The notes under the pieces: generated by a model
Told to the model about the DNA's origin: nothing
Database searches by the model: none
What the model saw: only the letters and a program-made list of their open reading frames with translations
From: a virus
Virus record (IMG/VR): IMGVR_UViG_3300048032_000096
Coordinates: 1 to 35,606 of that record
Reading direction: 5' to 3' (one strand)
DNA length: 35,606 nt
Position numbers and translations under genes: made by a program
Part shown: positions 1-23,101 of the stretch, in pieces
Numbering within the stretch: the first letter of the stretch is position 1
Layout of the letters: every line of letters begins with the position of its first letter

Positions 1-152
1 GCTCGTGTTTTCTTTACTACGGGTGCTTCAATTGCATACCATGTTTCACCTGGTTCATGCATAAGATGTGATTCTGCACGTACTGCTTGTTCAGCAGTTT
101 CATAAGTACCAAGTACCTTTTTAGTACGAAGGTCTACTACGTTGTAAGTCAT
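1..152 (-). CDS. Hypothetical protein, 3' end beyond window
   Basis: The gene starts at ATG 150-152, directly after the stop codon of the upstream gene (153-155), and stays open for 50 codons to the left window edge, so the C-terminus is missing. The visible protein begins MTYNVVDLRTKKVLGTYETA and continues with an Ala/Glu-rich stretch, then a segment with HEPGETWYAIEAP. It has no signal peptide or membrane segment. The layout suggests a small soluble domain, but I do not recognise a family. It is the last visible member of the small-gene cassette that follows the tail genes. Function unknown. Confidence 0.55.
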   Translation of the reverse strand, partial: MTYNVVDLRTKKVLGTYETAEQAVRAESHLMHEPGETWYAIEAPVVKKTR

Positions 153-404
153 TTAATTATTTCGGAGGACAATTTGGTCTAGTTTGTTTTCAATACGCAC
201 CATATGATCTTCCATACGCTGAACCATGGTTGATAGATCAGCTTTAGATACATAGTCCTGAGCCACGCTAAGTTCAATAGCGTCGATACGTCTGTCAAGA
301 CCACTAATGCGATCATGTACATTATTTATTCGATTGTGTAATCTGTTATTCAGAGTTGCGCCACCTGCTACTAAAGCAATGACAGCAGCGACTATTGCTT
401 CCAT
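153..404 (-). CDS. Small membrane-anchored coiled-coil protein
   Basis: This 83-residue protein has an N-terminal hydrophobic segment (residues 2-17, MEAIVAAVIALVAGGA) followed by a long charged helix (about residues 20-80) with repeated Arg/Asp/Glu heptad-like spacing, including RRIDAIELSVAQDYVSKADL and RMEDHMVRIENKLDQ. The likely arrangement is one membrane anchor and a coiled coil on one side of the membrane. Its start ATG overlaps the stop of the upstream secreted-protein gene as TAATG. Similar small anchored coiled-coil proteins are found in cyanomyoviruses, as far as I recall. A spanin-like or holin-accessory role is possible because of the membrane-protein context, but nothing in the sequence proves it. 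Confidence 0.6.
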   Translation of the reverse strand: MEAIVAAVIALVAGGATLNNRLHNRINNVHDRISGLDRRIDAIELSVAQDYVSKADLSTMVQRMEDHMVRIENKLDQIVLRNN

Positions 405-880
405 TATTTAAGGGATACGATTGGTACGATGTCATGGCAAAGCATTTCGACACGACTGCCAGGTCTAAAAGTAAAACCTGACTTCATAATTTCTGTACAC
501 TTAAGTGCTCTGACTAGCTCGTAGTCAAGACGCATCTTTTGCTCGTGTTTACGGGCGATACCTTTACAGGTTTCTATCATGCCACCATCTAGTGGGACTG
601 AAAAGTTCAGTTGTACGCCGAAGTTATTGCTTCGTACATACCCTGTGTTATCGTAAGGAATAGTATCGTTGCCCATATAAAAGGGCGAGAATTGCATGGT
701 TGCGCCATTACAACTATTGTTACTTGCAAAGTATTGCCTAGACGGTGCACCAGTGTTCTGAAACTGCACCGCCTGATTGGTCACATTACCTGTAGCTGCT
801 GCTACCGGAGATGATGTATTTTGTACCTTTGGGTCATCATTAGCGTAAGCAGGACTTACTGAGAGAAGACCGATAAGGAT
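404..880 (-). CDS. Secreted cyanophage protein, start codon uncertain
   Basis: The mature part is clear: a short hydrophobic signal segment ending in SVSPAYA (signal peptidase I type site), then a polar domain with SPVAAATGNVTNQAVQFQNT, an internal CNGATMQFSPFYMGNDT motif and a C-terminal helical, Cys-containing part ending GSRVEMLCHDIVPIVSLK. It looks like an exported or envelope-facing protein of a type I recall from cyanomyovirus genomes. The frame is open back to ATG 1048, but that extension lies inside the neighbouring gene and looks like a shadow. No in-frame ATG, GTG or TTG lies between it and the signal segment. The coordinate given uses an ATC codon (878-880) as a plausible non-AUG start, overlapping the upstream gene by 25 bases. 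The start, not the gene, is the weak part of this call. Confidence 0.6.
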   Translation of the reverse strand: MLIGLLSVSPAYANDDPKVQNTSSPVAAATGNVTNQAVQFQNTGAPSRQYFASNNSCNGATMQFSPFYMGNDTIPYDNTGYVRSNNFGVQLNFSVPLDGGMIETCKGIARKHEQKMRLDYELVRALKCTEIMKSGFTFRPGSRVEMLCHDIVPIVSLK

Positions 881-1203
881 GTAGTAGTAGTAACTTGTTC
901 GATTGTTTCTGTTACTAGGCTGTCTTGAATCTTTCCTGCTGCTCTGGTTACAATCTCTAGTTGAAATTGATCTCCTGCAGTATGGACTGAATAAGTTGTA
1001 GCAGCATTTGAGATGTCCCCACTTGGGACTACGTTTGTTCCAGACCATGATGTATAAGCACCACCATATACGTTGGTAGCAATGGTTCGGTCAATATCAA
1101 TGGTGGTAGTTGTTGTTGACTGCATTGAACCTTGCGTAAAGTTAGGGGTCACCTGAGCTGATACTGGACTAGCTAAAAACAATAAAAGTAGTAATCGTTT
1201 CAT
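856..1203 (-). CDS. Secreted protein with Thr-rich mature region
   Basis: This 115-residue protein has a textbook signal peptide: MKRLLLLLFLASPVSAQ, with cleavage expected after VSA (residue about 16). The mature part holds a polythreonine run, GGAYTSWSGTNVVPSGDISN, a beta-like middle and a second Thr/Ser-rich end finishing LSVFSQ. It starts within the stop of the upstream holin-like gene (ATGA overlap at 1200-1203). The protein is expected in the periplasm or outer envelope of the host, or on the virion. I recall similar proteins from T4-like cyanophages, where the function is also unknown. The neighbouring gene at 404 is also exported, so the two may act together. Confidence 0.7.
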   Translation of the reverse strand: MKRLLLLLFLASPVSAQVTPNFTQGSMQSTTTTTIDIDRTIATNVYGGAYTSWSGTNVVPSGDISNAATTYSVHTAGDQFQLEIVTRAAGKIQDSLVTETIEQVTTTTSLSVFSQ

Positions 1204-1508
1204 TCTTCTTTCTTTTTAGGATCAGGAGATTTGTTATTAGATTTATTATTGGAAGTAGTTAAACCAAAAGTAGCAAGTGCACCAGTAAACACAGAAGCAA
1301 CAAACGTTATATCACCACCACTCTGACCTTTTTTAATCATGGGTAGTTCAACATAGTTTAGAGTAATAATAAAACCACTCCAAATAACAACGCCTAGACG
1401 AACAAAGGTTCCAAGGATTTGTAGTTCATCTTCTGTATTTTCTTTTACCTTTGCTAAGAAGTTTTTACTGGGTCCGGTTGATTCTTCTTTTTTGTTATTT
1501 TGTTCCAT
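1200..1508 (-). CDS. Two-TM membrane protein, holin candidate
   Basis: This 102-residue protein has a charged N-terminus (residues 1-28), a hydrophobic segment around residues 30-50 (LGTFVRLGVVIWSGFIITL), a short loop with MIKKGQSGGD, a second hydrophobic segment around residues 66-84 (ITFVASVFTGALATFGLTT) and a Lys/Asn/Ser-rich hydrophilic tail ending DPKKKEE. Two membrane spans, small size and a charged C-terminal tail fit a class II holin, which would form the inner-membrane lesion at lysis. It sits in a run of membrane and secreted genes after the tail genes, where lysis genes are common. The holin call is inferred from topology and context, not from a diagnostic motif. Confidence 0.55.
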   Translation of the reverse strand: MEQNNKKEESTGPSKNFLAKVKENTEDELQILGTFVRLGVVIWSGFIITLNYVELPMIKKGQSGGDITFVASVFTGALATFGLTTSNNKSNNKSPDPKKKEE

Positions 1509-1924
1509 GCTTGCTTCATGATTGGTTTCATAAGCATCACTAAGTATTTAAATAGTGATGTAGCAGCAAGGGTGGCAGCTACAGAAATAAATGCTGTAGT
1601 TGCTGCAGTAGTCATGATCGTTGTCGTCGGCATCGGGACTTCAATGTCCGTAAATGGGATCTCAATGATCTGAGCTTCAGGTGGTATAGCTGGTTTAGCT
1701 AATGTTGGATTGTTTTGTTGTTGTTGTTGACTATCTGTATCTTGTGGCGGAGGATCTATATTAATACCCTCTATCCCTGGTGGCGGTCTAAGTACGTTAG
1801 GAGGCACCACAAGCGGCTCATACGACGGTATATCTGCCTGTGGTACCTCTAGTATAGGTATAGGTAATTGGAACGCTTCAGGGAGCAATAGAGAGGGTAG
1901 TTTGGGTGGGTTGACCCACTCCAT
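1454..1924 (-). CDS. Proline-rich protein with C-terminal membrane span
   Basis: This 156-residue protein starts MEWVNPPKLPSLLLPEAF. Residues 1-95 are strikingly proline-rich with a poly-Gln run (QQQQQ) near residue 67. A hydrophobic segment follows around residues 103-132 (TTAATTAFISVAATLAATSL and beyond), then a basic tail with KKK. One membrane anchor and a long extended domain are the simplest reading. It starts in a TAATG overlap with the stop of the 59-residue gene upstream, and its end overlaps the holin-like gene by 55 bases. I recall proteins with a very similar N-terminus in T4-like cyanophages. Function is unknown; an envelope-spanning or lysis-accessory role is only a guess from context. 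Confidence 0.65.
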   Translation of the reverse strand: MEWVNPPKLPSLLLPEAFQLPIPILEVPQADIPSYEPLVVPPNVLRPPPGIEGINIDPPPQDTDSQQQQQNNPTLAKPAIPPEAQIIEIPFTDIEVPMPTTTIMTTAATTAFISVAATLAATSLFKYLVMLMKPIMKQAWNKITKKKNQPDPVKTS

Positions 1925-2103
1925 TAATCAGCACCATACAACCCATCAGCACCAAATAAACCACGTTCAATAAAATCAACAGCGGTGTCATCAACTGTAT
2001 TGTCTGTTGTTGTAGCCATTTTCCGCAGCAGGTCAACAATTAAGCGTTTGACCTTTGGAGATTGGATAAAAGAGAACAGAATTGGACGGATAAGTGTAAT
2101 CAT
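1924..2103 (-). CDS. Small hypothetical protein (59 aa)
   Basis: This is a 59-residue reading frame that fills the gap between the 160-residue gene and the proline-rich gene. It starts MITLIRPILFSFIQSPKVKR, continues through LIVDLLRKMATTTDNTVDDT and ends GLFGADGLYGAD. The N-terminal 16 residues are hydrophobic and could associate with membrane; the rest is a short helix and an acidic, Gly-rich tail. Its stop forms a TAATG junction with the next gene, the coupling pattern used throughout this phage, which supports it being real. No family is recognised. Confidence 0.6.
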   Translation of the reverse strand: MITLIRPILFSFIQSPKVKRLIVDLLRKMATTTDNTVDDTAVDFIERGLFGADGLYGAD

Positions 2104-2609: not shown

Positions 2610-5423
2610 TTAAGCAGGAGTGACGGTGTTACTAGTTGCACTAACAGTGCCTTGCGAGTTTGCAAATTGAGCACTTACAGTAATTGTTGTACCAGCCGAT
2701 AATTCAACATCTGGTGTATTACCAGAAGGTAGTGTTGCTGGAAATGTAATAGTATTGTCAGCTAGATAACCTAAATTAACAAAACTAGGATCAACTGACG
2801 TTAGGTCAGTAACTGTACCTGCACTATTAATAATACCATACATTGTAGATATGTTGCCACCAAAATAATTTACTGTATTTGTTAAAGGTGATCCTGTTGA
2901 TATGGTTCCATTAATATTAAATAACGTAACATCAGAACCTGAAATGTTTCCAATAAATGCTGTATTACTTCCTTGTCGTACTTTATTACCAGATCTAAAA
3001 GAATTGTTAGCCAAATTTGTAGTATCAGTTAAAGTTGCAATGTCAGAATCTTCACAGTAAATAAGTGATCTATAGTACTGTTGGGTAGTACCTTGATAGT
3101 TATATCTTCCATGACAAAAAATATAACCACCAGCGCTATGGAAAAATCTAACTCCCCTTGTACTCATCGTATCTAAAAAATCTTTACTGTATTGATTATA
3201 ACCACCAACTTCAGTTGATCTCCTAAGTGAAGGAGTCCAACTACTTCCGTTATTACTACTCATAAAATACGCATAATAGTAACTTGTATTGCCAGTAACA
3301 GCTTGGTTGGTACCTTTAATCATTGCAATTAATCTACCCCTTGAAAATGTAAGCCCTTTAACCTGTTGAACAGACCAACCTGTTGCAGATACATTAATAT
3401 TGGTATAACTTGCACCGTTATTAGTTGAAACATAGATTGTATCAAGTTGATCCTTACCAAGTTGAACTACAATGTTGTTTCCTGATACTGCTGTTCTTGA
3501 ATAGTAGTAATCTTGATTGGTTCTCAGTGGTCCGGCTGTTGCTACCCAATGGGAAATTTGTGAGCCATTATTTACACTAAAATCACAAGTATAAAAGTAG
3601 TTATCATAACCATTATTATGATAGTGTTTAGCAACCATTGTGATTTTTGAGCCATGTCCAAAGAAACCATCAATCTTGTTGGTGCTAGAAGTTGAATAGT
3701 TGGGAAAACTACTCCACTGAAATACTAAATCAGTTGTGGTAACTGTTGCATTACTATCACAAATGTCTCCATTCATAATATGAATAGTAGCCTGAGTGCT
3801 GTTACTCTGGCTGCAGTTTACAGAATATGTGTGGTCAGAAGTAAAGCCAAACCCGTACTCACCCTCGGTTGCATCTTGAGCTGAGGTATTACCACCAGTA
3901 TTTATTTTTTTCCACTTATTATTAGACCCCGATATTGATGTAACATTATTTAAATAGCACCACCTTGGGCCGTTTTGATATTGCAAAATTGTATCACCTT
4001 TCCACACGTCAGACCATTTAACCCCTGAGGAACTGTTACCTCCACCGGGTTCTTGATATGAATTTCTATTTGTAGTATGAGTATCATCAATATAATACTC
4101 CCCCTCCGTAATTTTTGGAGAATAACTTGCATTGGCAGCATTCGCATCACCAAAGGATGTACCACTGGCAATGCCGTATGTACTTCGGAACATTTTGAAC
4201 TTCTCGTAGGAACTATAGTCCGTCGGAAAAGTAACAAACGCTGCACCACCAACGGAAGATGATACAAAATGCGACGTCCAAGTATTTCCGTTTGATGAGT
4301 TTTGATCCCCGCCTGCATTATTTTGATGTATGAGATTTGTTGAGTTATTTACGTTAGATCCAATATCATCGTTTGATGTAATTCCTGTTACATTTGAAGT
4401 TTCAGGAAATGTACTAAAAGTACCATCTAGTTTAACTTTTAGTGCTTTAGTTGTAACAGGTACACCATCAGGATTTAAGTTAGCAACAGCACTAAATGTC
4501 TTAGATGTATATCGTGCTCCAGCAGTATTATCTTCAGTAAGAACAAGGCTTCCAACAGTAGCTGGTCCTAAAGTGTTAATCTGGCCTGATGCTGCACTTT
4601 CTATATCAAATGTTAGTGGTCCACCAGTATTCGACGGCGATGTATCAGTACCAGTTGTAACGGCACGGATGTAATATCCAGAATCTGCACTCTGGATAGT
4701 ATATGTGGTTCCTGCTGAACCAATGTCAAACCATCCACTTGTTCCATTGAAGGATCGCTGCCAACGTGTCGCATAGGTATAAGGAGCTGTACCACCAGTT
4801 ACGGTACCTTCTGTGGCAGTAGCTGTACCACCAACGCCTAAACTAGACAAAGAAATTGTCGTTGCAGTAGATTGTGATAATGTTGTTAAATTAGATTGAA
4901 CAACAGTCCACTGAAAATGCACACTACCAACTTGAAGAGCACCAGCATATGTAGTGTTATCTGTAGTAGTATTGGGAGTATCAGTATAATTTAATTTAAA
5001 GGTGTAGTTACCTGCACTGTTAACAGTACCAACTTCCTGACTTTTAAAGCGGTCAGAAACAACCGCACTATTATCGGTAAAGACAACAAGATCACCAGGA
5101 TTAGCGTTAGCAATAGTAATTTGTTGTGCTGAATTTAGAGTTCCACCAGCAAACGGAGAAGCACCATTAGTAATTACAAATGGATCAGCAGAAGTACCAG
5201 CACCACTTACAAAAGCAGGTGAGGCAGTTACATCAGATGGTGTTGGAGCAGCTTGAGAACTAGAAGAAATGCTAGTTAAAGCAGAACCTTGTTTAACATA
5301 TAGTTTACCTTCATCAGTAGCAAAGGTAATTTCACCTTCTTGAAGATCAGTTAAGGATCCATTTAAATTGGAATATGTACCTCGCGCTACACGCAGAGGG
5401 GTTCGATTAGTAGGTGTAGGCAT
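2610..5423 (-). CDS. Large fibre/adhesin-like structural protein (937 aa)
   Basis: Residues 8-50 carry the N-terminal signature common to many phage receptor-binding fibres, with RVARGTYSNLNGSLTDLQEG followed by EITFATDEGKLYVKQG. Residues about 60-300 are Ser/Thr/Gly-rich and include an Ig-like or bacterial adhesin-like stretch (TGGTAPYTYATRWQRS and YTIQSADSGYYIRAVT). The C-terminal half, about residues 550-850, has repeats with the flavour of BNR or propeller blades, such as IYVSTNNGASYTNINVS and YFMSSNNGSSWTPSLR. The likely role is a secondary tail fibre or tail-tip adhesin contacting the host surface. It starts in a TAATG overlap with the end of the gp17-like fibre. Fold assignment is by eye; the structural role is fairly safe. 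Confidence 0.7.
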   Translation of the reverse strand: MPTPTNRTPLRVARGTYSNLNGSLTDLQEGEITFATDEGKLYVKQGSALTSISSSSQAAPTPSDVTASPAFVSGAGTSADPFVITNGASPFAGGTLNSAQQITIANANPGDLVVFTDNSAVVSDRFKSQEVGTVNSAGNYTFKLNYTDTPNTTTDNTTYAGALQVGSVHFQWTVVQSNLTTLSQSTATTISLSSLGVGGTATATEGTVTGGTAPYTYATRWQRSFNGTSGWFDIGSAGTTYTIQSADSGYYIRAVTTGTDTSPSNTGGPLTFDIESAASGQINTLGPATVGSLVLTEDNTAGARYTSKTFSAVANLNPDGVPVTTKALKVKLDGTFSTFPETSNVTGITSNDDIGSNVNNSTNLIHQNNAGGDQNSSNGNTWTSHFVSSSVGGAAFVTFPTDYSSYEKFKMFRSTYGIASGTSFGDANAANASYSPKITEGEYYIDDTHTTNRNSYQEPGGGNSSSGVKWSDVWKGDTILQYQNGPRWCYLNNVTSISGSNNKWKKINTGGNTSAQDATEGEYGFGFTSDHTYSVNCSQSNSTQATIHIMNGDICDSNATVTTTDLVFQWSSFPNYSTSSTNKIDGFFGHGSKITMVAKHYHNNGYDNYFYTCDFSVNNGSQISHWVATAGPLRTNQDYYYSRTAVSGNNIVVQLGKDQLDTIYVSTNNGASYTNINVSATGWSVQQVKGLTFSRGRLIAMIKGTNQAVTGNTSYYYAYFMSSNNGSSWTPSLRRSTEVGGYNQYSKDFLDTMSTRGVRFFHSAGGYIFCHGRYNYQGTTQQYYRSLIYCEDSDIATLTDTTNLANNSFRSGNKVRQGSNTAFIGNISGSDVTLFNINGTISTGSPLTNTVNYFGGNISTMYGIINSAGTVTDLTSVDPSFVNLGYLADNTITFPATLPSGNTPDVELSAGTTITVSAQFANSQGTVSATSNTVTPA

Positions 5424-22138: not shown

Positions 22139-22308
22139 TACCAGACTCCAGGGATAAGTTGACCAGTTAGTGCATAAGCACCTAGTGCTGCAATGACACC
22201 TAGCATTGCTAGACGACCATTCAGCTTCTCAGCTTTTTCGTTGTGATTCACAGTTACTTCTTCCATGTACATGCGTGGTTCGGTGGGCCAGATCTGTGTA
22301 TCGTTCAT
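22138..22308 (-). CDS. hli: High-light-inducible protein (Hli)
   Basis: The 56-residue protein starts MNDTQIWPTEPRMYMEEVTV. Residues 24-54 carry the single-helix chlorophyll a/b-binding signature: EKAEKLNGRLAMLGVIAALG and then the ALTGQLIPG end. Hli proteins sit in the thylakoid membrane, bind chlorophyll and carotenoid and protect or help assemble photosystem II. It works with phage psbA, which lies three genes downstream. Its start forms a TGATG overlap with the outer-membrane-like gene and its stop a TAATG overlap with the 22-residue gene. Confidence 0.95.
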   Translation of the reverse strand: MNDTQIWPTEPRMYMEEVTVNHNEKAEKLNGRLAMLGVIAALGAYALTGQLIPGVW

Positions 22309-22652
22309 CAGAATGAATACTTCAGACCAGCTTTGGTTCCATAGGAAGTATTAATATCACCAGTCATGAAGGAGACCTCTCCATAAAGAGCTAGGCGCTC
22401 GCTAAGAGACGTGGTACCTCCAATCTTACCAGAGAGTTCCAGCTCAGATTCTGCACCATCACTAAGAACGATGGCAGGACCAGCTTGGATATACCAGTTG
22501 TTACCTTCGTAACCAACATGATTATCAATAACAGTACCGGCATAATCATTACCAGCATAGCCAGAGTTTGCTTCGACATTTACATATGGACCTGCAAAAG
22601 CAGCGGGTGCAGCAGCAAAGACGGCTGCAGGAAGGATAGCAAGAATTTTCAT
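22308..22652 (-). CDS. Small outer-membrane beta-barrel-like protein with signal peptide
   Basis: The 114-residue protein begins with a signal peptide, MKILAILPAAVFAAAPAAFA, cleaved after about residue 20. The mature part alternates polar and hydrophobic residues in short strands, for example YVNVEANSGYAGNDYAGT, WYIQAGPAIVLSDG, ESELELSGKIGG and LALYGEVSFMTG, and ends in LKYSF with a terminal Phe. An aromatic last residue is typical of outer-membrane barrels. Its expected place is the host outer membrane or periplasm. It lies between a lysozyme-like gene and hli. It is small for a closed barrel (about 94 mature residues), so oligomer formation or a partial barrel is possible. Confidence 0.7.
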   Translation of the reverse strand: MKILAILPAAVFAAAPAAFAGPYVNVEANSGYAGNDYAGTVIDNHVGYEGNNWYIQAGPAIVLSDGAESELELSGKIGGTTSLSERLALYGEVSFMTGDINTSYGTKAGLKYSF

Positions 22653-23101
22653 TTGAGTTTATTTAAAAAAGAATAAGTGTGTTTTGTGCGATTACCATGA
22701 ATGCCCCACCCTAACCAGTAATAAGCAGCATTCATATAGTAAGGGACTGTCTGATGGTTAGTCAGAAATGAGCTAAGGTCATCCCTAAATCTTAGCTCAT
22801 GTATCATGTAAGCTGTTTGACATTCTATGGAACTAGGATCATCTTTCCGTTTAGTACAGAAAGTACCTAGTCCATCATAACGATGTTTAGATGTCCATTG
22901 AATTAAACCATAACCACCATTAAGACACCTATCATAAGGGATGATAGAACCGCCTTCACAGACGTTAGGTTTAAAGGTTGACTCCTGATAGATGTTACCC
23001 ATAATAACAGCAAGTGCAGTTCGATCTGTTACACCCGCAGAAGTCTGTAGTTGTTCTAGAACGTACTGCTCTTGTACAGTACATTGTGGGCAGTCAATCA
23101 T
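22649..23101 (-). CDS. Peptidoglycan hydrolase, phage tail lysozyme-like
   Basis: The 150-residue protein carries LAVIMGNIYQESTFKPNVCE, with a probable catalytic Glu in QES, followed by NGGYGLIQWTSKHRYDGL and an Asp/His/Glu-rich middle with YMIHELRF. This is the pattern of the lysozyme-like domain found in phage tail lysozymes (AAGLLGNIQAESGF..., GYGLAQWT...). It has no signal peptide or membrane segment. It may be the endolysin, needing the holin candidate at 1200-1508 for access to the wall, or a structural muralytic enzyme. It sits between scaffold and the outer-membrane-like gene and is coupled to scaffold by TAATG. Confidence 0.75.
   Translation of the reverse strand: MIDCPQCTVQEQYVLEQLQTSAGVTDRTALAVIMGNIYQESTFKPNVCEGGSIIPYDRCLNGGYGLIQWTSKHRYDGLGTFCTKRKDDPSSIECQTAYMIHELRFRDDLSSFLTNHQTVPYYMNAAYYWLGWGIHGNRTKHTYSFLNKLK

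Follow-up and report, generated by a model that had tools for sequence, protein, structure and literature searches.

A rearranged cyanomyovirus-type gene cassette in a T7-like cyanopodovirus, with a P5 gene that likely begins inside P4

T4-GCs 218, 219, 234, 235 and 237 of the T4-like cyanophages, often together with a "plasmid stability" gene, were described as a cluster by Sullivan et al. 2010 (PMC3037559), and in the parts of that paper covered here the cluster is present in all compared cyanophages but S-PM2 and bears signatures of mobility. In this work we analyzed a T7-like cyanopodovirus, the virus record IMGVR_UViG_3300048032_000096 (35,606 bases, called the window as a whole), and focused on P1 to P6, six neighbouring open reading frames (ORFs) on its minus strand (2103-153), located downstream of the fibre genes. 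Judged from sequence relationships, P2-P5 are a rearranged copy of the cassette already described in these larger cyanobacterial viruses, which are only distantly related to the window. What is new is that P5 likely begins inside P4, in the -1 frame and 63 codons ahead of the P4 stop. The features are listed below (aa, amino acids).

1924..2103, minus strand: P1, 59 aa with a hydrophobic start; phrog_2738 at 5.5e-21.
1454..1924, minus strand: P2, 156 aa with 27 Pro, one C-terminal hydrophobic span and a basic tail; phrog_9426 at 4.2e-34, phrog_570 at 5.7e-4.
1200..1508, minus strand: P3, 102 aa with two hydrophobic spans and a charged tail; DUF6450 (Pfam PF20048) at 1.1e-30.
856..1203, minus strand: P4, 115 aa, putative signal peptide MKRLLLLLFLASPVSA/Q (by eye), Thr-rich and predicted all-beta; phrog_650 at 5.6e-28.
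404..1048, minus strand: P5, 214 aa from the ATG at 1048; phrog_1755 at 1.1e-46, phrog_848 at 1.9e-43.
856..1048, minus strand: out-of-frame overlap of P4 (frame 0) and P5 (-1 frame), 63 codons.
153..404, minus strand: P6, 83 aa, an N-terminal span followed by a coiled-coil-like part (by eye); phrog_12220 at 1.1e-25.
3..152, minus strand: a seventh ORF ended by the contig edge, 50 aa visible, with a related ORF in 50/83 loci of the window's kind.

All six of P1-P6 have a strong match among PHROG families of unknown function (best E 5.5e-21 to 1.1e-46), and because of these matches and the Pfam match of P3 they are regarded as genes and not as chance frames. The initial annotation, which placed six adjacent genes after the fibres, was right in this, and its separate descriptions fit as well: the proline-rich anchored protein is P2, the two-span protein is P3, the 59-residue protein with a hydrophobic start is P1 and the anchored coiled coil is P6. 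Of the two signal-peptide proteins it named, P4 holds (by eye), while the signal-like stretch of P5 sits at residues 53-69 of a long frame and has no start codon near it.

Iterated hidden Markov models (HMMs) were run over 246 sources, namely 83 podovirus loci of the window's kind (podoA), 81 loci of the P-SSP7 group (podoB) and 82 myovirus loci. The sample comprises named isolates and three sets of 80 IMG/VR loci, found with P5 queries from the window, S-RIM8 and P-SSP7; each set is the best 80 of at least 600 matches, P5 is present in all by construction, and some loci are short, so that an HMM miss is no proof of gene absence. It turned out that P4 was matched in 83/83 podoA, 80/81 podoB and 82/82 myovirus loci, P2 in 75/83, 74/81 and 76-78/82, and P3 in 76/83, 78/81 and 63/82, respectively. 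Homologues are thus clustered in T4-like cyanophages, as the initial annotation had proposed (P5 in 82/82 by construction), but they are not "near-identical": among the matches listed, identity to the cyanomyovirus proteins is 23-36% for P5, 28-39% for P4 and 42-57% for the conserved part of P3.

By shared HMM match sets, S-SM1_163, 166, 167, 168 and 169 (GC 218, 234, 235, 236 and 237) are relatives of P3, P2, P5, P4 and P4, so in cassette terms P3 is GC 218, P2 is GC 234, P5 is GC 235 (also "gp165") and P4 is GC 236 (DUF6322), with GC 237 as its paralogue; GC 236 is not among the five GCs listed in the covered parts of PMC3037559. The HMMs of P2 and S-SM1_166 have 225 ORFs in common, and the S-RIM8 counterpart of P2 matches phrog_570 at 7.7e-108. 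P4 of the window reaches PF19847 only below the Pfam cut-off, and its S-RIM8 relative matches this family at 8.7e-43. In both cassettes P5 overlaps P4 in the -1 frame, and by eye its start appears to lie at the same Ser-Trp of P4. However, the window copy is collinear after the fibres, whereas the myovirus copies mostly form two convergent arms, and the window block lacks GC 219, the P4 paralogue and the plasmid-stability gene, with identities of ~23-57%. The GC 219 HMM has matches in myovirus loci only (54/82), and phrog_568, the family of the plasmid-stability gene, gave no match from the seven ORFs of the block or the three upstream genes. By eye, the product of this gene (L001 7393-7713, L002 4865-5143) is a small protein whose N-terminus is a hydrophobic span and whose end contains Pro, and the name looks doubtful.

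The gene order differs between the groups. P1 P2 P3 P4 P5 P6 is found in 62/83 podoA loci and P2 P3 P4 P5 P1 in 72/81 podoB loci. In 78/82 myovirus loci P2 opposes P5 from the other strand, with P3 on the strand of P5 in 4 of these, and a P4 paralogue (P4b) stands ahead of P4 in 69/82. Among the isolates, exceptions are P-RSM4, with P2 on the strand of P5, and the podoviruses P-SCSP1k, P-RSP2 and S37-C6, in which P2 faces P5. Relatives of P2-P5 cluster in both groups, but order and orientation differ. P-SSP7 gp42-gp45 (NC_006882) and the relatives in S-SBP1, S-TIP37 and SS120-1 are the same four genes in the same order as in the window, but P1 is downstream of P5 there, and P5 mostly starts at -109 from the P4 stop and not at -190.

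Export of P5 is most likely, with a signal that in most of these phages is preceded by a basic tail encoded inside P4. Its predicted parts are a 52-residue basic tail, the signal-like YYYYILIGLLSVSPAYA/ND and a 145-residue exported domain with four conserved Cys (64, 112, 135 and 155 in the numbering of the first alignment row), which are invariant over 62 relatives. The only ATG, GTG or TTG before the signal-like stretch is the ATG inside P4, built from the A of TCA and the TG of the P4 Trp codon TGG, 190 nucleotides (nt) or 63 codons before the P4 stop. The frame of P5 relative to P4 is -1 in 83/83 podoA, 80/80 podoB and 81/82 myovirus loci (L182 has no P4). An ATG before a conserved P4 Trp (Ser-Trp) occurs at -190 in 80/83 podoA loci and at -163 in 80/82 myovirus loci, and the podoB start is at -109 in 65/80 loci (GTG 31, TTG 20, ATG 14). 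Three loci (L063, L230 and L159) have no P5 start within the overlap, and L063 and L230 extend past the contig end. Among 13 further isolates, the long overlap is present in 10, including Bellamy (289 nt) and P-SSM2 (310 nt), while P-SCSP1k, MED4-184 and S37-C6 have a short one; by eye, P5 begins with an ordinary signal peptide in P-SCSP1k and S37-C6 and is ambiguous in MED4-184.

In podoviruses and myoviruses alike, conservation of the P5 start and of the open frame exceeds what synonymous chance would give. The third base before the Trp is A in 81/81 (podoA) and 75/75 (myovirus) fourfold codons, and C is found at the podoB start position in 0/72. Synonymous recoding retains the start ATG in 37-38% of trials, and random synonymous recoding of P4 leaves the -1 frame open in 0.9% (podoA), 18.5% (podoB) and 10% (myovirus) of trials; the recoding test took only loci with the usual start of the group (40/80 podoA, 33/65 podoB, 40/80 myovirus), which are related to one another and so are not independent draws. 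The 40 codons directly upstream of the P5 start are open in 0/79 podoA, 3/64 podoB and 2/79 myovirus loci. The other alternative frame is open in 0/40, 0/33 and 0/40 tested loci (expected 0.8%, 1.7% and 3.8%). The start column is not unique, since equally fixed third-base columns occur elsewhere, two in podoA (65/65, 83/83) and one in the myoviruses (80/80). The evidence for the overlap thus lies in the fixed third base, in a podoB start position without C and in a frame free of stops. The finding that the P5 start always falls on a P4 Trp codon (242/242 loci with a start, of 245; 10/10 long-overlap isolates) was discarded as evidence, because an NTG in the -1 frame needs a codon beginning with TG and the last 100 P4 codons contain no Cys in 245/245 loci, which makes the coincidence arithmetic.

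It is very improbable that P5 is produced by -1 ribosomal frameshifting from P4, as a P4-P5 fusion and not from its own start. This was the first idea, in view of the lack of any start near the signal-like stretch in 79/85 loci and the -1 frame in 85/85, and it was given up when the ATG at -190 turned out to be conserved. No conserved slippery heptamer is seen by eye in the printed codons, the short overlaps of S37-C6, P-SCSP1k and MED4-184 are ordinary ones, and the fixed A and the missing C at the start positions are explained by initiation, though a few other columns are equally fixed. Four GenBank annotations place the P5 start after the P4 stop, namely P-SSP7 gp45 (L004 10784, annotated from a GTG), L003 14620, L249 7010 and L260 5977, and in these four the only start before the signal-like stretch is also the upstream one, inside P4. 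From the conserved overlap, it would seem that gene starts need correction in public genomes, among them those of P-SSP7, S-SBP1, Bellamy and P-SSM2. In the cyanophage literature searched, with supplements and most subscription papers outside the search, no description was found of the P4/P5 overlap, nor were the podovirus genes presented as a cassette, and the search on the DUF and PHROG names of the block found no papers.

The transferable unit is best read as P2-P5, with one Pro-rich anchored, one two-span and two exported proteins. For P1 and P6, a place in the podovirus backbone is the better reading, because both stand in the Syn5 segment, between the fibre and TerS, and this segment is without P2-P5. 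P1 is matched in 70/83 podoA, 79/81 podoB and 0/82 myovirus loci and has a relative in Syn5 gp48 (1.2e-13); elsewhere, MED4-184 has a P1 relative, and so does S-CREM2, a myovirus outside the 82 loci, in the segment of which (segment alone covered, not the whole genome) no other block gene is matched. P6, read as a backbone gene near TerS, is matched in 74/83 podoA, 0/81 podoB and 0/82 myovirus loci and has relatives in the Syn5, S-CBP1 and S-B28 segments; in the last two segments it is the only block gene matched. Weakly matching families of P6 (Pfam, PHROGs, NCBIfam) were discounted as coiled-coil noise, except phrog_12220, while "lipoprotein" phrog_462 (1.4e-7) and phrog_29007 were kept less surely. 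A transferable set of all six genes, as first proposed, is not supported.

For the movement of P2-P5, we built a midpoint-rooted P5 tree of 62 rows. The podovirus copies of the window's kind form one clade with P-SCSP1k and P-RSP2 (100/100) behind a long branch, while the myovirus clade also contains S37-C6 (Autographiviridae) and MED4-184 (38 kb, unclassified Caudoviricetes), both on long branches, so their exact placement is unsure. Since all podovirus rows but S37-C6 fall in one clade behind a long branch, most of the sharing between podoviruses and myoviruses is old. A second jump, of a myovirus-type cassette into S37-C6 and MED4-184, is likely, because both carry the myovirus-type P4b and a facing P2. 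The idea of a set that moves between unrelated phages is therefore kept for P2-P5, with a further jump likely and most of the sharing old. The sites of the cassette vary: it lies between regA and hsp20/gp43 in S-SM1, S-RIM8 and P-RSM4, beside psbA or hli genes in P-HM1, Bellamy, ACG-2014i and S-H9-1, beside a tRNA array in S-SKS1 and near talC in S-CAM3 and P-SSM2. In Bellamy, P3 and GC 219 are some 6 kb away from P2, and the S-SCSM1 segment has relatives of P3 and GC 219 only.

P5 queries matched 442 and 460 records of the phage collection, which by name group as Synechococcus, Cyanophage, Prochlorococcus, Tiamatvirus (P-SSP7), marine or uncultured. Among bacterial and archaeal genome contigs, 16 P5 loci were found; all of them carry other cassette genes, so they are read as phage contigs, and the idea of a host origin was dropped. 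For instance, L274 (NZ_RMVE01000006.1, 188 kb, Nonlabens xiamenensis strain 1Q3 assembly) has a full cyanomyovirus-type cassette and looks like a cyanomyovirus contig, and contigs labelled Euryarchaeota, Lewinella and others (within L261-L276) also contain cassette genes.

In T4-type phages, TATAAATA is the motif of late promoters. Across the 82 myovirus loci, a box that departs from it at no more than one position is present 15-45 nt upstream of P4b in 39/66 and of P3 in 37/63, and upstream of the internal genes P2 and P4 in 0/75 and 0/78; the background is 1.6% for random positions (n = 6000) and 8.7% for ORF starts (n = 1634). The exact NATAAATA within 150 nt upstream is found for P4b in 25/66, P3 in 38/62 and P2 in 1/72, compared with 2.2% of background windows. 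Since the boxes precede P4b and P3 and not the internal P2 or P4, each arm of the myovirus cassette looks like a late operon. The podovirus block, judged by its position after the fibres and the class definition in the literature covered, would belong to the late class III genes.

As for the function, which we infer, our tentative proposal is that marine picocyanophages use P2-P5, expressed late, as a module that attacks the envelope and most likely assists lysis. Gene content, export-type N-termini of P4 and of relatives of P5, the conserved overlap, boxes resembling late promoters in many of the myovirus copies and the clustering are established directly, and it is consistent with such a module that relatives of P2-P5 stay together in podovirus and myovirus loci at varied myovirus genome sites. 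In this model, P3 would make or regulate an inner-membrane lesion like a two-span holin, and P2, anchored via its C-terminal span, would carry a proline-rich arm. P4 would be exported and, through its long Thr-rich beta-hairpins, form a barrel-like or tube-like assembly at the outer membrane. P5, exported and probably disulfide-bonded, would partner P4, and as P5 starts inside P4, the two would be made together. An AlphaFold2 model built on 36 P4 sequences (predicted local distance difference test (pLDDT) 84.6, predicted template modelling score (pTM) 0.42) has two strands of 24-25 residues, 24-47 and 90-114, with ~40% Ser/Thr. P4 is accordingly predicted to be an exported long beta-hairpin that resembles barrel-forming pores and nozzles without significance: the best PDB rows, none significant, are a tail chain of phage Andhra, the lysenin pore, other pore formers and tail proteins of phi29 and P68. 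Long hairpins by themselves could produce this resemblance. In BFVD, six rows are under 1e-3, of which two are named (S37-C6 and S-SCSM1), both marine phages of this kind, and four are nameless. Searching the sequences of solved structures with the P4 and P5 profiles gave 0 matches.

Several results weigh against this proposal. In the P4 model, polar/apolar alternation is seen in only one of the two long strands (shuffle p 0.016 and 0.87), the Foldseek search against PDB gave nothing under 1e-3 (best E 1.9e-3), and the structural comparison (VIA) reached a Z of at most 4.2. The P5 model is poor (pLDDT 60), with its best Z of 4.2 on a helical stretch, and a fold assignment for P5 was dropped for these reasons. 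No signal peptide is seen by eye in P2, which leaves the export of its proline-rich arm unexplained, and P3, with Kyte-Doolittle peaks of 1.84 and 1.54 at 31-49 and 67-85 and the tail KKKEE, matches no holin family (only PHROGs of unknown function and DUF6450; none in NCBIfam). By eye, no Cys stands at the cleavage sites of P4 (SPVSA/Q) or P5 (SPAYA/ND), hence no lipobox, and the block contains no endolysin, the lysozyme-like gene of the window being 20 kb distant. In the named isolates with annotated starts, the box (at most one mismatch) is found at 3/10 P4b (S-SKS1, Bellamy and S-RIM8) and 0/2 P3, so it is frequent but not general. An essential role in lysis is also counted against, because the Syn5 segment (28,000-46,214) has no match to P2-P5 and clade A (Syn5) is reported, in the sources covered, to be faster and more virulent than clade B. 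Slow-infecting phages are among the carriers of P2-P5, and the carrier S-TIP37 is a clade B podovirus.

A rival reading is envelope remodelling in long infections, in which P4 and P5 would alter the outer surface or permeability, P2 and P3 would support them from the inner membrane and other genes would perform lysis; superinfection exclusion or a pore for nutrients are variants of this. In its favour, carriers are found among podoviruses of clade B (S-TIP37, S-RIP2) and MPP-C (P-SCSP1k) and among myoviruses, clade A is the faster and more virulent one as noted above, the latent periods of MPP-C are described as longer in the sources covered, and the cassette is at most 3 kb from a phosphate-binding gene in S-SM1, P-RSM4, S-SKS1 and P-SSM2. 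However, the link with speed is confounded by clade, with only 3 cassette-free podovirus segments covered, the podovirus segments read have no annotated pstS (though many of their genes are nameless), and the late-promoter-like boxes indicate an expression that is late for exclusion. In T7, the holin occupies the slot between the fibre and TerS, and in S-CBP1 (L278 7030-8596) a lysozyme and a small protein with, by eye, a single span are located between the fibre and P6/TerS, where the window has P1-P5. Because of the content of this slot and the late boxes we rank assistance of lysis above remodelling, which we consider rather unlikely. The initial annotation had proposed a lysis or envelope-modifying module, of which envelope targeting stands for P3, P4 and P5 by their spans and export-type N-termini, and lysis is still a matter of interpretation.

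It is improbable that P4 and P5 are virion components, carried in the particle as a nozzle, a collar or an ejected protein. The upper-tail chain of Andhra as best Foldseek row, the phi29 and P68 tail proteins behind it and the fibre genes adjoining the podovirus copies point in this direction, but export-type N-termini would take both proteins out of cytoplasmic assembly. Besides, the annotated structural proteins gp53, gp54 and gp58 of Syn5, which we take to be horn/knob proteins, were tried as relatives of P2-P5 and gave no match. The lysis-assisting reading can be extended to a spanin-independent breach of the outer membrane in many marine cyanophages, in which a P4 barrel would be made in step with a disulfide-bonded P5 from the same DNA in two frames, as part of a self-promoting late cassette moving among podoviruses, myoviruses and possibly other tailed phages; in this complete form we regard it as unlikely, if a little less so than a virion role. 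No description of how cyanophages breach the host envelope was found in the literature covered, and with the unit fixed as P2-P5, and with its late expression and the P5 start both likely, the question becomes testable in S-TIP37 or P-SSP7.

The window also carries genes for RNA polymerase, primase/helicase, DNA polymerase, ribonucleotide reductase, the head-tail adaptor, psbA, the major head protein, tail, internal virion protein and fibres, and all the recognised genes are on the minus strand. At 22308-23101 on this strand, near psbA, a phage lysozyme-like gene (PF18013, 7.7e-15) is followed by a cyanophage outer-membrane beta-barrel gene (PF24653, 2.4e-39), and in S-SCSM1, too, a gene annotated as tail lysozyme lies close to two barrel genes; the lysozyme-like and barrel genes are possibly a second shared envelope pair. 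In the fibre locus (2610-5423, minus strand), a 937-aa protein weakly matches the N-terminal domain of Mtd (5e-4, which falls short of the Pfam cut-off).

Compared with known systems, P4 recalls the beta-hairpin barrel pore formers through its predicted 24-25-residue strands, with alternation in one strand only and the non-significant Foldseek and Z values given above. P3 agrees with class II holins in layout only, having two spans, a short length and a charged C-terminus. With regard to a spanin pair of the Rz/Rz1 type, P4 and P5 lack a lipobox Cys, and P6 has an N-terminal span and a coiled-coil-like part, in which Arg-rich residues after the span would favour a cytoplasmic C-terminus. In the late slot of T7, the gp17.5 holin, gp18 TerS and the gp18.5-18.7 spanins follow one another. 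The block of the window differs in the absence of Cys at the P4 and P5 cleavage sites, in having no sequence relation found and in the -1-frame overlap of two putative exported proteins, but it resembles this slot in placing small membrane and exported proteins, encoded by overlapping genes, between the fibre and TerS.

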